A stretch of 64,000 nt of DNA from Ascidiaceihabitans sp. (GTDB lineage: Bacteria > Pseudomonadota > Alphaproteobacteria > Rhodobacterales > Rhodobacteraceae): positions 1-64,000 of the forward strand of contig JAQXDI010000061.1 of assembly GCA_029251465.1 (NCBI GenBank), written 5' to 3'. The translations under genes were made by a program, and so were the position numbers. Shown piece by piece: positions 27,985 to 33,361 of this stretch. Numbering within the stretch: the first letter of the stretch is position 1; each line of letters begins with the position of its first letter. Under the pieces are notes generated by a model, which worked only from the letters and a program-made list of their open reading frames with translations, did not search any database and had not been told where the DNA came from.

Positions 27985-28036
27985 ATTTCCCCCTGCCTAC
28001 ACGCCCGAAGTTTGGCAAAGAAAATCCACCGCGCAA

Positions 28037-28071
28037 GCAAAAGCCGCGCCCCCGATCTGGGGACGCGGCTT
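28037..28071 (-). terminator. Intrinsic terminator of the Ala-rich repeat protein gene
   Basis: AAGCCGCG (28041-28048) with CCCC (50-53) pairs with GGGG (59-62) and CGCGGCTT (28064-28071). On the minus strand the stem is followed by TTTTGC. It lies directly after the Ala-rich gene. Confidence 0.85.
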
Positions 28072-28094
28072 AAATCGTAACTGGTTGGCGTGGC

Positions 28095-29147
28095 TTACAG
28101 GCCGACGGCCGCTTTGATTTTGTCCAGAACGCCTTGCAGCACTTCAGGATTGTCTTTGGCTTTGTCCAACGCTGTTTTCAGAGCTGTCTTTTGGAACGCG
28201 CCCAATTCAGAACCGTCGATCATCTCGGAGACTTTTTCCAAGTTGAAGCCGTCAACTGTCAGCAATTCAGCCATGTCGCCTGTGCCTTCGGTTGCTGCGG
28301 CGGTCGCAGTTTCCGCTGTCGCGTCGACCGCTGCGGTTGCAGTGTCGGTGGCCGCGTCAGTTGTGGCTTCTGCTGCTGCCGTTGCGGTGTCTGTCGCCGC
28401 TTCGGTTGTCGCGTCTGCTGCTGCCGTGGCAGTGTCTGTCGCCGCTGTTGTCGTGTCCGTCACAGCGTCGGCGGCTGCCGTTGCGGTGTCAGTTGCGGTT
28501 TCAGTCACAGCTTCGGCGGCACTTGTTGCGGTATCAGCTGCTGCGGTTGCGGTGTCTGTCACTGCGTCTGTTGCTGCTGTTGCTGTGTCCGTTGCAACGT
28601 CGGCAGCCGCGGTGGCTGTGTCGGTTGCCGTTTCAACGGCTGCGGCGGCTGTGTCTGTCGCTGCATCTGCTGTCGCAGAGGCCGCTTCGGTCGCTGTATC
28701 AACGGCGGCTGTTGCAGTGTCTGTCACCGCATCTGCTGCTGCAGTTGCCGTGTCAGTCGCGGTTTCGACTGCGGCTGCTGCCGTGTCTGTGGCCGCGTCA
28801 GTTGCTGCTGCCGCTGTGTCGGCAACCGCGTCTGCTGCTGCAGTTGCTGTGTCTGTGGCTGCATCAACCGCTTCGCCTGCGGTTTCAGCAACAGCATCGG
28901 CTGCGTCAGCGGCGGTGTCTGCTACTGCTTCGGCCACGTCAGAAGCTGCGTCAACCGCACCTTCAACAGCGCCTTCGGCTGTTTCAACTGCGGCACCTAC
29001 GGCGTCAGATGCGCTTTCCAGAATTTCTGGTGCTTTGACAGCTTCAGCAGCATCATTCATGACTTCTTTTGGGCTTTGGCCCGAATACAACATGTAACCG
29101 CCACCTGCGACTACGGCTGCAACTACAATCCACAACAGATTTTTCAT
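28095..29147 (-). CDS. Membrane-anchored Ala/Thr/Asp-rich 11-residue-repeat protein
   Basis: This 350-residue protein of unknown function has an N-terminal signal anchor (MKNLLWIVVAAVVAGGGYMLYSG, residues 1-23), then about 60 residues of Ala/Glu/Asp-rich sequence (ESASDAVGAAVETAEGAVEGAVDAASDVAEAVADTA), then roughly 17 diverged 11-residue units with core ATDTATAAADA/V, and a separate C-terminal domain of about 60 residues (VDGFNLEKVSEMIDGSELGAFQKTALKTALDKAKDNPEVLQGVLDKIKAAVGL). The 11-mers predict a long amphipathic helix similar to LEA and apolipoprotein repeats. ATG 29147 was chosen because the preceding TTG is not needed; GAGGGGAC is its Shine-Dalgarno. It is a single-gene unit with its own terminator and diverges from infC. 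Confidence 0.85.
   Translation of the reverse strand: MKNLLWIVVAAVVAGGGYMLYSGQSPKEVMNDAAEAVKAPEILESASDAVGAAVETAEGAVEGAVDAASDVAEAVADTAADAADAVAETAGEAVDAATDTATAAADAVADTAAAATDAATDTAAAAVETATDTATAAADAVTDTATAAVDTATEAASATADAATDTAAAAVETATDTATAAADVATDTATAATDAVTDTATAAADTATSAAEAVTETATDTATAAADAVTDTTTAATDTATAAADATTEAATDTATAAAEATTDAATDTATAAVDATAETATAAATEGTGDMAELLTVDGFNLEKVSEMIDGSELGAFQKTALKTALDKAKDNPEVLQGVLDKIKAAVGL
28300..28920 (-). repeat. 33-bp coding repeat inside the Ala-rich gene
   Basis: The gene's middle repeats a degenerate 33-bp unit that encodes ATDTATAAADA-like 11-mers, with substitutions mostly at the valine/alanine and aspartate/threonine positions. The units are diverged rather than identical, so it is an old repeat kept by selection on the helix. 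Copy number is likely to vary between strains. Confidence 0.75.
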
Positions 29148-29251
29148 CAATTTGTCCCCTCAGACTGGATCAAAGGCAATCAAACACCTCTGTTTCTTCT
29201 CCTGTGTCAGATGCGCCGCGCAATCGGAAGGTGCAAGGGGGAAAATCACGC

Positions 29252-29349: not shown

Positions 29350-29895
29350 ATCGCTCGCAGACCTCATAACGCGCCGCCACAACGTGATACTGGCCCGCGC
29401 ATCAACGATAAAATCCGCAACGCCGAGATCCGCCTGATTGGCGCAGATGGCGAAAATGTCGGTGTCGTAACGCCAACCCGTGCTATGGAAATGTCAGAAG
29501 AAGCCGGACTTGATCTGGTTGAAATCTCGCCCAACGCCAACCCGCCCGTGTGCAAAATCATGGACTTTGGCAAGTACAAGTACGAGACGCAAAAGCGCGA
29601 ATCCGAGGCCCGCAAGAAACAGAAGATCATTGAGATCAAGGAAGTAAAATTCCGTCCGAACACGGACACCAATGATTACGAAGTCAAGATGCGCAACGTC
29701 TACAAGTTCCTGGAAAACGGCGACAAGGTAAAGATCACCTTGCGGTTCCGTGGCCGTGAAATGGCGCACCAGAACTTGGGTCGCGAACTGCTAGAACGGG
29801 TTGCCGAGGACACCAAAGAGGCCGGCAAAGTGGAAAACTTTCCAAAGATGGAAGGTCGCCAGATGGTCATGCTGATTGGGCCGTTGTCGAAATAA
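29350..29895 (+). CDS. infC: Translation initiation factor IF-3 (ATC start)
   Basis: This 181-residue factor binds the 30S subunit and checks the initiator tRNA-start codon match. The start is ATC at 29350: translation from there gives [20 protein letters not shown], the standard N-terminus, and AGGA lies 8 bases ahead. No ATG/GTG in frame before codon 46 fits. Non-standard starts (AUU in E. coli) are typical of infC and let IF-3 repress its own translation. The N-domain ([57 protein letters not shown]) and C-domain ([44 protein letters not shown]) are complete. rpmI and rplT are not adjacent. Confidence 0.95.
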
Positions 29896-29979: not shown

Positions 29980-30768
29980 TTAGCCCGCAGCGTTGACTGC
30001 GCGTTTCGTCATGACAGCACACAGATGCGCGCGGTAGTCGCCCGATCCGTGCAGATCGCCGATCATGCCGTCACCGGGCAGGCTCAGACCGTCAAGTGCG
30101 GAGACCGCGAAGTTGGCAGACAAGGCCGCTTCGGCTTCGGTCCAGCGGAATACGCCGCCCTCGGATGCACCCGTGATCGCCACGCGCACGCCGTCGGCGT
30201 ATTTTGCGACAAACACACCCACAAGCGCAAAGCGCGAGGCAGGTTGCACGAATTTCTGGTAATTCGCGGCCTCAGGTACGGGAAAGCGCACCTCGGTGAT
30301 GATCTCGCCCTCATTCAAGGCCGTGTCGAACATGCCTTGGAAATAGTCATCTGCCGCGATTTCACGGGTGTTGGTTTTGATGACCGCGCCCGAGGCCAAG
30401 GCCGCCGCCGGATAGCACGCGGACGGGTCGTTGTTCGCCAGTGATCCGCCGATTGTGCCGCGATTGCGCACCGCAGGATCACCGATGTGGCTGGCGAGGT
30501 CTGCCAGTGCCGGATAGACACCCGCGCCCGCAGCCACTGCACCGTGGGTTGTCGCCCCACCGATGCACAGCGATCCGTCATCGCCGGTGCAGATGCCCTG
30601 CATTTCGGAAATACCCGTCAGGCTGACCAATGTCGCAGGGCTCGCAAGGCGTTGTTTCATCGTCGGGATCAGCGTTTGACCGCCGCCCAACGCTTGGGCC
30701 TCTTCGCCGCCCAATGCCGCAACCGCATCTGCGATCGTGTCCGGCTTTTCAAATTCAAAGTTGTACAT
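29980..30768 (-). CDS. coxM: CO-dehydrogenase-like medium subunit, FAD binding (CoxM)
   Basis: This 262-residue flavoprotein of the xanthine oxidase/CODH family has the N-terminal FAD segments ALGGGQTLIPTMKQRLASPATLVSL and SHIGDPAVRNRGTIGGSLANNDPSACYPAAALASGAVI. It passes electrons from the small subunit to FAD. It is third in coxS-coxL-coxM, separated from coxL by 98 bp with a hairpin. AAAGGA precedes the ATG at 30768. Confidence 0.92.
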   Translation of the reverse strand: MYNFEFEKPDTIADAVAALGGEEAQALGGGQTLIPTMKQRLASPATLVSLTGISEMQGICTGDDGSLCIGGATTHGAVAAGAGVYPALADLASHIGDPAVRNRGTIGGSLANNDPSACYPAAALASGAVIKTNTREIAADDYFQGMFDTALNEGEIITEVRFPVPEAANYQKFVQPASRFALVGVFVAKYADGVRVAITGASEGGVFRWTEAEAALSANFAVSALDGLSLPGDGMIGDLHGSGDYRAHLCAVMTKRAVNAAG

Positions 30769-30793
30769 TTTTTTGTCCTTTCGTCAGCACATC

Positions 30794-30811
30794 AAAAACG
30801 GTTCCGTTTTT
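30794..30811. terminator. Hairpin between coxL and coxM
   Basis: AAAAACGG (30794-30801), a 2-base loop, and CCGTTTTT (30804-30811) form a self-complementary element. On the minus strand it ends in TTTTTG, so it may partly terminate the coxL transcript or set coxM mRNA levels. Confidence 0.5.
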
Positions 30812-30866
30812 AGAGTGCCAAATAATCCTTGTAGGTCAGAGAGTTACCCCTCGGACGCACCGTTAC

Positions 30867-33245
30867 TCAGGCGTTGTTGATCGCATTCCATACGCGGTCC
30901 GGCGAAAGCGGCATGTCGATGTGTGCCACCTTTTTGCCCCCCGAATTCAACGCATCAATCACCGCATTCACCACCGACGGAGGTGAGCCAATCGCGCCTG
31001 CCTCGCCGCAGCCTTTGACGCCCAACGGGTTGTGCGTGCAAGGCGTTTGGCAGGAATGGTCGACCGCATAGAACGGCAAATCATCCGCGCGCGGCATGGC
31101 GTAATCCATGTAGGACCCCGTCAACAATTGGCCGTTGTCGTCGTACGAACAGCCCTCGAGCAGGGCTTGGCCCACACCTTGGGCGATGCCACCGTGCACT
31201 TGGCCAGACACGATCATCGGGTTGATGACGTTGCCAAAATCATCCGCCGCCGAGAACCGTTCGATCGTGACTTTGCCAGTGTCTGGATCAACTTCGACCT
31301 CGCAGGCATAGGCCCCTGCGGGGTAGGTAAAGTTGGACGGATCGTAGAACGCGGTTTCTTCTAACCCCGGTTCGATTTCTTCCAACGGGTAGTTGTGCGG
31401 CACGTAGGCGGCCAGTGTCACGTCCCCCCAAGCGACGGATTTATCCGTGCCGGCAACGCTGAACACGCCGTCCTTCAGTTCCACATCCATGTCGGAGGCT
31501 TCCATCAAATGCGCCGCGATTTTCTTAGATTTCGCGATGATTTTTTCCGTCGCGCGCACCATGGCAGAGCCACACACCGCGAGGCTGCGTGATCCGTAAG
31601 TGCCCATTCCGAAAGGGATTTTGGACGTGTCGCCGTGCACGATGTCGATCTGATCCTCTGGGATACCGATCATTTCAGCAACAACTTGCGGAAAGGACGT
31701 CTCGTGCCCTTGCCCGTGGCTGTGTGCGCCAACCATCACCGAAATCGAGCCTGTCGCGTTCACACGCACGGTGGCCGCGTCGTACAGACCAGCGCGCGCA
31801 CCGAGCTGCCCGACCAAGTTCGACGGCGCGATGCCGCAAGCCTCGATGTAGTTGTTGATACCAAGGCCACGCCATTTGCCTTTGGCCTCGGATGCTTTGC
31901 GGCGGGCGTCAAAGCCTGCGAAATCACCGATTTCGATCAGCTTGTCCATTGTCGCGTGGTAGTCGCCGGTGTCGTATTCCACAGCCACAGGTGTGGCGTA
32001 GGGGAATTCGGTGACGTAGTTTTGACGACGCAAATCAATCGGGTCAACACCCAATTCGCGCGCGGCCATGTCGATGACACGCTCGATCTGGTAGGTCGCC
32101 TCGGGGCGCCCAGCGCCGCGGTAAGCGTCAACCGGAACCGTGTTGGTGAACACCGCTTTGACATTCACGTAGATCAGCGGCGTTTTGTAGTTTCCGGCCA
32201 TCAGCGTGCCATGCAGCCACGTCGGAACCGACGATGCAAACGTGGACAAATACGCGCCCATGTTGGCTTGTGTGTCTGTGCGCAGAGCGACAAAATTGTT
32301 GTCCTTGTCCAGCGCCAGTTGGATCGTGGTGACGTGGTCACGGCCATGCGCGTCTGACATGAATGCCTCGGAGCGGGACGAGGTCCATTTGACCGGACGA
32401 TTGCAGGCCTTGGCGGCAAACGTGCAGAACGCTTCTTCTTGGTAGTGAAAGATTTTGGTGCCAAAACCGCCGCCCACATCGGGGGCAACCACACGCAGTT
32501 TATGTTCAGGGATGCCCAGAACAAACGCGCCCATCAGCAGACGAATAACGTGCGGGTTTTGCGAGGTTGTGTACAGCGTGTGCTGATCGTCCGCGCGGGA
32601 ATAATCACCCAGCGCCACGCGTGGCTCCATCGGGTTGGCAACCAGACGGTTGTTCACCAGATCAAGGGTTGTGACGTGATGCGCAGTTTCGAACGCAGCG
32701 TCTGTGGCGGCTTTGTTTTCTTCAACAAAACCCCAATCGTAGCATAGGTTCGATGTCAGATCGTCGTGGACCTTGGTGGCCCCGTCTTTGAGCGCGTCCT
32801 TCATGTTTACGACGGCCGGTAGCTCGGAAATATCCACAACGATGGCTTCGGCGGCGTCGCGGGCCTCTGCAAGGCTTTCGGCGACAACGGCGGCGATCGG
32901 TTCACCGACGTGGCGGACTTTGCCTTCGGCCAGAACCGGATGGCGGGGTTCTTGCATCGGCGCGCCGTGTTTGTCTGTCACTTCCCAACCGCACGGAATT
33001 GACCCAACGGCTTCGAATTCTGCGCCGGTAAAGATCTGCACAACGCCGGGCATCGCGGCCGCAGCAGAAGTGTCGAGGGAATTGATTGTTCCGTGCGCGA
33101 TGTCCGAGCGCAGGAAGAACACGTGGGCCTGGCCGCGCATGTTCATGTCGTCTGTGTAATTACCGGCTCCGGTTAGAAACCGAATGTCTTCGCGCCGCTT
33201 GCTGCTGGCGCCGATACCGCTTTTGATGTCACCGTCTTTTGGCAT
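30867..33245 (-). CDS. coxL: CO-dehydrogenase-like large molybdenum subunit, form II (CoxL)
   Basis: This 792-residue molybdopterin enzyme belongs to the xanthine oxidase family. The active-site loop reads AYRGAGR (residues 374-380), which marks form II CoxL; form I, the proven CO oxidiser, has AYxCSFR with the Cu-binding cysteine. The conserved active-site glutamate is in GCGEAGAIG (Glu748). Form II enzymes often have other or unknown substrates. Start: ATG at 33245, with AGGGAG before it. Other signatures such as GGGFGTKIFHYQEEAF and GSGQGHETSFPQ-like SHGQGHETSFPQ are present. Downstream is coxM; upstream lies coxS across a hairpin-rich spacer. Confidence 0.94.
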   Translation of the reverse strand: MPKDGDIKSGIGASSKRREDIRFLTGAGNYTDDMNMRGQAHVFFLRSDIAHGTINSLDTSAAAAMPGVVQIFTGAEFEAVGSIPCGWEVTDKHGAPMQEPRHPVLAEGKVRHVGEPIAAVVAESLAEARDAAEAIVVDISELPAVVNMKDALKDGATKVHDDLTSNLCYDWGFVEENKAATDAAFETAHHVTTLDLVNNRLVANPMEPRVALGDYSRADDQHTLYTTSQNPHVIRLLMGAFVLGIPEHKLRVVAPDVGGGFGTKIFHYQEEAFCTFAAKACNRPVKWTSSRSEAFMSDAHGRDHVTTIQLALDKDNNFVALRTDTQANMGAYLSTFASSVPTWLHGTLMAGNYKTPLIYVNVKAVFTNTVPVDAYRGAGRPEATYQIERVIDMAARELGVDPIDLRRQNYVTEFPYATPVAVEYDTGDYHATMDKLIEIGDFAGFDARRKASEAKGKWRGLGINNYIEACGIAPSNLVGQLGARAGLYDAATVRVNATGSISVMVGAHSHGQGHETSFPQVVAEMIGIPEDQIDIVHGDTSKIPFGMGTYGSRSLAVCGSAMVRATEKIIAKSKKIAAHLMEASDMDVELKDGVFSVAGTDKSVAWGDVTLAAYVPHNYPLEEIEPGLEETAFYDPSNFTYPAGAYACEVEVDPDTGKVTIERFSAADDFGNVINPMIVSGQVHGGIAQGVGQALLEGCSYDDNGQLLTGSYMDYAMPRADDLPFYAVDHSCQTPCTHNPLGVKGCGEAGAIGSPPSVVNAVIDALNSGGKKVAHIDMPLSPDRVWNAINNA

Positions 33246-33264
33246 GGTTTTGCTCCCTATGTCG

Positions 33265-33361
33265 GGTGGATCAAGATCCACCTTACAGTTTGGTCTGGCT
33301 CAAGGCGGCCGAAACGCCGCCTTTCCATGATGTCGGATGTTGCTGCGGCGGACCAAGGTCC
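33265..33361. repeat. Three hairpins in the coxS-coxL spacer, two of them repeat copies
   Basis: GGTGGATC-AA-GATCCACC (33265-33282) and GGACC-AA-GGTCC (33350-33361) share the pattern TAAGGTGGAyCTTGrTCC when read on the minus strand. Between them AAGGCGGC (33302-33309) pairs with GCCGCCTT (33316-33323). Three hairpins in a 150-bp intergenic stretch may stabilise coxS mRNA or reduce coxL expression. Two belong to the dispersed GTAAGGTG family also seen at 36.8 and 44.2 kb. Confidence 0.7.

Follow-up and report, generated by a model that had tools for sequence, protein, structure and literature searches.

The minus strand of the 64,000-nucleotide stretch analysed here (the window) encodes a 350-aa protein (ATG start at 29147, stop codon at 28095-28097) with an N-terminal transmembrane (TM) anchor, MKNLLWIVVAAVVAGGGYMLYSG, a long acidic stalk of 11-residue repeats, and a small C-terminal domain (CTD). 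The reading that we favour, with about even confidence, is a passive rod, anchored in the inner membrane and located in the periplasm, which serves as a spacer or tether and presents the CTD to a partner. In this proposal, the TM helix would anchor the protein in the inner membrane, and the stalk, an acidic hendecad helix with Ala, Val and Leu on one side and Asp and Glu on the other, would project through the periplasm. Stalks would probably pack with copies of themselves along the Ala/Val stripe, and the three-helix CTD, putatively a protein-binding domain, may engage a partner at the cell wall or the outer membrane. The protein would thereby space or tether parts of the envelope. Its layout is best read as similar to that of TolA or Omp-alpha, without kinship to either. 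The Rhodobacteraceae are an abundant marine group, and a separate, passive helical rod present throughout them would amount to an envelope component so far unrecognised.

Table 1. Features of the gene and its divergent neighbour, in window coordinates
Feature	Position	Strand	Basis
Whole gene, 350 aa	28095..29147	-	ORF and translation
TM anchor, approximately residues 4-22; predicted N-terminus inside, remainder periplasmic	29082..29138	-	Sequence; positive-inside count
Stalk, predicted acidic Ala/Thr/Asp/Glu hendecad helix, residues 38-290	28278..29036	-	Periodicity; AF2
CTD, predicted C-terminal three-helix domain, residues 295-350 (56 residues)	28098..28265	-	Family alignments; AF2; dN/dS
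Terminator-like hairpin with a 13-bp stem, then UUUGCUU, right past the stop codon	28041..28071	-	Fold z -3.78, computed for 28026-28094 (minus strand)
infC (IF-3), divergent neighbour	29350..29895	+	Pfam IF3_N and IF3_C

The start codon is preceded at a distance of 7 nt by a ribosome-binding site, GAGGGGA (29155-29161, read by eye). Terminator-like sites such as the one past the stop codon were no more frequent than expected by chance in a consensus scan. The long plus-strand ORFs across the gene are antisense frames of the repeat, and the Rfam search of the window returned only a tRNA, with no RNA element at the gene. A phage origin was discarded, as there was no relative among viral contigs, and the PHROGs search gave only a match to the CTD with an E value of 0.015. 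The search of PDB sequences found nothing believable, the best whole-sequence E value (0.0094) being built from repeated fragments.

The neighbouring infC gene lacks an in-frame ATG ahead of its conserved region; its probable start is the ATC at 29350, after AAAGGACGAAAGCC, reminiscent of the non-AUG start of infC in E. coli. The divergent arrangement is common: of 108 loci (the window, L065-L071 and L072-L171), 95 have infC on the opposite strand. With a stricter script, infC was placed immediately upstream, at a distance of up to 1.2 kb, in 89 of 105 loci, a set from which the chance loci L142 and L147 are left out. Among the 16 misses are second copies located away from infC, as well as some loci in which infC had been seen earlier. 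On the other flank, 71-79 loci contain matches to the window genes for sulphite reductase, PAPS reductase and DUF934 (named by Pfam) and to a ferredoxin-NADP-reductase-like gene (without a Pfam match, named by reading). Within the window, the family gene is separated from the sulphur-assimilation genes by a TauD-type gene. The neighbours reflect a conserved block order, with no clear functional link to infC or to sulphur assimilation. Further along, at 29980-33281 on the minus strand, the window encodes molybdopterin dehydrogenase subunits (FAD_binding_5, MoCoBD).

The first-pass annotation had described a membrane-anchored helix of about 17 copies of an 11-residue repeat, almost free of Lys, and a separate conserved C-terminal domain, and this description holds up well. 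The 253 residues of the stalk comprise 108 Ala, 62 Thr, 33 Asp, 18 Val and 17 Glu, with a single Lys and no Arg, and carry a net charge of -49. Non-overlapping 11-mers resembling ATDTATAAADA number 15 at a threshold of at least 7 of 11 matching positions, and 16 at a threshold of at least 6, close to the earlier count. In 300 shuffled stalks, the mean at the former threshold was 4.96 copies and the maximum 10. Residue identity is 0.50 at lag 11 (z 9.2) and 0.58 at lag 33 (z 11.7), and the hydrophobicity power at a period of 11/3 is 51.6, compared with approximately 1 in shuffles. By power at 3.667, the gene ranks first among the 167 stop-to-stop ORFs of at least 120 codons in the window, and ranks 2 and 3 are taken by antisense frames of the same DNA.

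At the DNA level, the repeat is weak, with 59-78% matches according to TRF and main periods of 33, 45 and 66. Codon identity at lags 11, 22 and 33 does not rise above the permutation null in the window gene (z 1.4, 0.2 and -1.8). Since the codons have no memory at the repeat lags, selection at the protein level is likelier than recent duplication, and it appears from these comparisons that the amphipathic helix is maintained, and not the DNA repeat. The suggestion that repeat copy number be compared between strains is therefore unpromising, and the idea of a VNTR was ruled out, because the synonymous codons bear no trace of recent tandem duplication.

Among 102 members of the family, proteins range from 120 to 601 aa and stalks from 42 to 495 residues, with a median of 178 residues (10-90% range 103-275). 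Stalk compositions vary between A/T/D, A/E and A/E/K. In the 96 members with stalks of at least 90 residues, the hydrophobicity peak falls at 3.60-3.74 in 83, z11 exceeds 3 in 70, and the top lag is 11, 22 or 33 in 62. Asp and Glu occupy one face of the helix and Val, Leu and Ala the opposite one. The stalk is net negative in all 98 of 98 CTD-bearing members, with a median of -0.23 charges per residue. The 11/3 (3.67) period persists despite free change in the sequence and length of the stalk. The family is a clear natural example of turnover in both that leaves one physical property, the stripe of period 11/3, intact.

AlphaFold2 (AF2) models agree with a helical stalk and a folded CTD. The full-length model, built on an alignment of seven sequences, is weak (pLDDT 65.5, pTM 0.34) and places stalk helices at 40-152 and 157-292, with block pLDDT values mostly between 57 and 78. 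A 65-residue CTD construct was modelled with a pLDDT of 87.1 and a pTM of 0.68 as a three-helix bundle without strands (helical segments 5-10, 18-27, 32-45 and 49-63). Within the CTD, Phe 7 and Lys 26 are at least 90% conserved in an alignment of 80 rows, and dN/dS between close relatives is 0.01-0.19, which indicates that the CTD is under purifying selection. The CTD by itself was not matched by any Pfam or NCBIfam model, and a Foldseek search with it gave no E value below 0.001 and no significant fold match. VIA returned only generic bundles (best Z 6.6), an output in which the absence of other folds carries no evidential weight.

With the CTD profile A1, matches were found in 124 of 149 high-quality genomes of the order sample, every one of them from the Rhodobacteraceae. 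In the Rhodobacteraceae sample, the profile matched 121 of 198 genomes, which is below the order-sample frequency, and in the class sample 3 of 240, all three from the Rhodobacteraceae. The wider profile A5 (80 rows) matched 13 of 385 genomes, 5 within the Rhodobacteraceae and 8 outside, the latter at E values of 0.001-0.009. Five of these eight outsiders were made into loci, and none of the eight was counted as real. On re-search, four of the five (L177, L178, L179 and L181) proved to be unrelated-looking proteins, by reading two sugar-nucleotide reductase-like, one chemotaxis-receptor-like and one unplaced, and the fifth (L180) gave no match at the locus. The distribution suggests that the family is restricted to the Rhodobacteraceae, with no convincing genome outside. 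Further matches discarded as due to chance were L002 and L142 (MerR-like), L030 (PopZ-like), L147 and L183. The full-length window protein matched 28 of 61 relatives, a few of which (L029 and L030, for example) do not belong to the protein family. The L029 protein (genome G045, of another bacterial family) is lipoprotein-like and has similar acidic repeats but no CTD, perhaps a case of convergence.

Most genomes carry one copy, and most of the approximately 105 loci read share the TM-stalk-CTD layout. The eight named loci are all from Rhodobacteraceae, including Ascidiaceihabitans sp., Lentibacter algarum and Sulfitobacter sp. EhC04. Four loci (L109, L128, L129 and L130) contain tandem short CTD paralogues of approximately 120-135 aa directly after the main gene. 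Two others (L119 and L136) encode a second CTD protein, the linker of which is acidic and free of the 11-residue repeat; the gene next to it specifies a protein that looks secreted and has no Pfam match. A re-search with A5 of 40 family genomes without a CTD produced 2 new matches, one of them MerR-like. Some CTD-less genomes belong to the same genus as CTD carriers, for example G525 of g80, and loss is therefore recent and easy. In other genomes the gene is gone and an fpr-like gene adjoins infC, so the family gene is dispensable. Our literature searches turned up no obvious description of the family, which may be in print elsewhere.

The placement of the stalk and CTD in the periplasm relies on the charge distribution around the TM helix and on the kinds of protein that share the CTD or the anchor. 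In 102 members, there are more Lys and Arg residues before the TM core than after it in 49, equal numbers in 44 and fewer in 9, a moderate positive-inside signal for a periplasmic stalk and CTD. The CTD also ends lipoprotein-like proteins in three loci (L101, L141 and L116), with anchors assigned by the lipobox criterion, and secreted LysM proteins in three genomes (L138, L132 and L134). The LysM match scores 21.2 against a Pfam cut-off of 20.9 in L138 and falls below the cut-off in L132; L134 is similar by sequence. The L134 gene (3986-6002, minus strand) adjoins CopD and CopC genes, and a link of the CTD to periplasmic copper handling is possible. In at least 6 of 24 Rhodobacteraceae genomes, picked from among those listed as lacking a CTD match, a TM-hendecad or TM-Ala-rich protein without a CTD occupies the place beside infC (L184, L187, L199, L202, L204 and G012/L025). 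The CTD is thus not always needed. In L201 (genome G204), on the strand opposite to infC, a similar anchor and an A/K stalk are fused to a cytochrome P460 with a CxxCH motif (31.9 bits, Pfam cut-off 27). Unlike the stalks of CTD-bearing proteins, those of L201 and L202 are Lys/Arg-rich, and acidity is therefore not universal. LysM proteins, lipoproteins and cytochrome P460 are all extracytoplasmic kinds, and these relatives point to a periplasmic location for the window protein.

The wide range of stalk lengths speaks against a fixed ruler and favours a tether or a brush. In the latter case, a membrane-tethered acidic helix would fill or hydrate the periplasm as a polyanionic brush, with cation-binding, osmotic or spacing effects and the CTD as a helper. 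The uniformly negative charge of CTD-bearing stalks, the free drift of their composition and length, and the stalks retained without a CTD agree with such a role. However, the 11/3 period is conserved, and a brush would not require an amphipathic stripe of this kind. Moreover, the CTD is under purifying selection and reused on a LysM protein, and the L201 and L202 stalks are not acidic. We therefore regard the brush as possible but unlikely.

The first-pass annotation had pointed to LEA and apolipoprotein helices that coat or protect membranes. An LEA- or apolipoprotein-type protectant of membranes or proteins, lying on membranes during drying or freezing, would account for the 11-residue amphipathic helix and for a weak similarity to the Pfam Apolipoprotein family in the window protein (16.1 bits), three scanned CTD orthologues and two CTD-less stalks (16-21 bits overall). 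These scores are far under the gathering score of 90, and no LEA model was among the Pfam matches to the window protein at E values up to 10. The hydrophobic face consists of just Ala and Val, the stalk is strongly anionic and has no cationic flank, and its lipid-binding score is negative throughout (mean D -0.95, no 18-mer above 0.68). In the whole set, an 18-residue stretch that exceeds the lipid-binding cut-off of HELIQUEST type occurs in only 2 of 98 members, and not in the window protein. Negative charge and poor lipid-binding scores make a membrane-coating or LEA-like role improbable, and this part of the earlier proposal is not upheld.

A membrane-anchored, phasin-like coat of polyhydroxyalkanoate granules is very improbable. 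Phasin_2 exceeds its Pfam cut-off of 24.9 in two orthologues, L069 (27.7) and L168 (32.8), but the window protein stays below it (16.6), and L071 has no listed match. The Phasin_2 matches fall within the repeat and may therefore reflect composition. The genome also encodes a separate phasin of 147 aa beside a PHA-synthase-like gene (a neighbour named by reading). Phasins (PF09361) are soluble cytoplasmic granule-coating proteins without a TM anchor, whereas the window protein is anchored, and the LysM and P460 relatives point to the periplasm. Phasin_2 and Apolipoprotein likewise describe amphipathic 11-residue helices, and the window protein reaches the cut-off of neither.

Among known systems, TolA and TonB share with the window protein an N-terminal TM helix, an extended periplasmic rod and a C-terminal domain (excerpts of PMC12204202 and PMC10666116). 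TolA domain II is 110-335 residues long (median 192) and, where alpha-helical, is reported to be mainly gammaproteobacterial; the family median of 178 is close, and the ranges overlap (excerpts of PMC12204202). The similar layout and rod length could suggest an energised force transducer of the true TolA/TonB type, which we consider hardly credible. The SHLS motif in the TolA TM helix, which contacts the motor (excerpts of PMC10666116), is absent from the window protein, which has no His. TolA domain III binds by beta-strand addition, whereas the AF2 model of the CTD is helical without a strand. The gene lies near infC, a TauD-type gene and sulphur-assimilation genes instead of in a tol-pal context, and no motor genes were found among the scanned neighbours. 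The stalk differs further from TolA in its acidic hendecads almost without Lys, encoded outside a tol/ton operon. TolA was tested as TIGR02794 and relatives, and the genome has a better TolA candidate of its own, L210, which lies elsewhere, beside a TolB-like gene (TolB named by reading). As the layout is TolA-like but these TolA hallmarks are absent, a passive spacer or tether is favoured.

Similarly remote is the possibility that the rod of the family was retuned, in this marine lineage, as a membrane-anchored helix that orders ice or water in the manner of type I antifreeze protein. Type I antifreeze protein is an Ala-rich 11-residue helix (TX10) with Thr/Ala rows 16.5 A apart (excerpts of PMC5304152), and the window stalk resembles it in having Thr columns on an Ala-rich 11-residue helix. 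Thr occupies three columns in 15, 14 and 11 of 21 units, Thr-Thr pairs at lag 11 reach 2.34 times expectation, and the Thr fraction of 0.23 is the highest among the 96 stalks. Some of the closest relatives are MAGs, the record names of which (FRAM, ANT) suggest polar seas. However, the same register also has Asp/Glu rows, many family members keep the period nearly without Thr, and the window protein, unlike the antifreeze, is TM-anchored, CTD-bearing and rich in Asp and Glu.

For the CTD, the paramyxovirus phosphoprotein X domain offers a likeness in fold only, as a small C-terminal three-helix bundle that ends a long protein. The comparison (VIA Z 6.6, rmsd 2.1 over 51 residues, Foldseek E above 1) probably reflects a generic bundle, the Z being too low for kinship.

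For the passive rod that we favour, coiled-coil proteins offer further parallels. The hydrophobic stripe of period 11/3 expected of a hendecad coiled coil is present, and the window stalk is a putative coiled coil. NadA3 has two undecads within a heptad stalk (excerpts of PMC6191539), and has in common with the window stalk 11-residue units, putatively of coiled-coil type in the latter, where they are the rule. Omp-alpha of Thermotoga maritima is a long coiled-coil rod that acts as a periplasm-spanning spacer (excerpts of PMC5082667); it is an outer-membrane protein from another lineage, whereas the rod proposed here would span out from the inner membrane.
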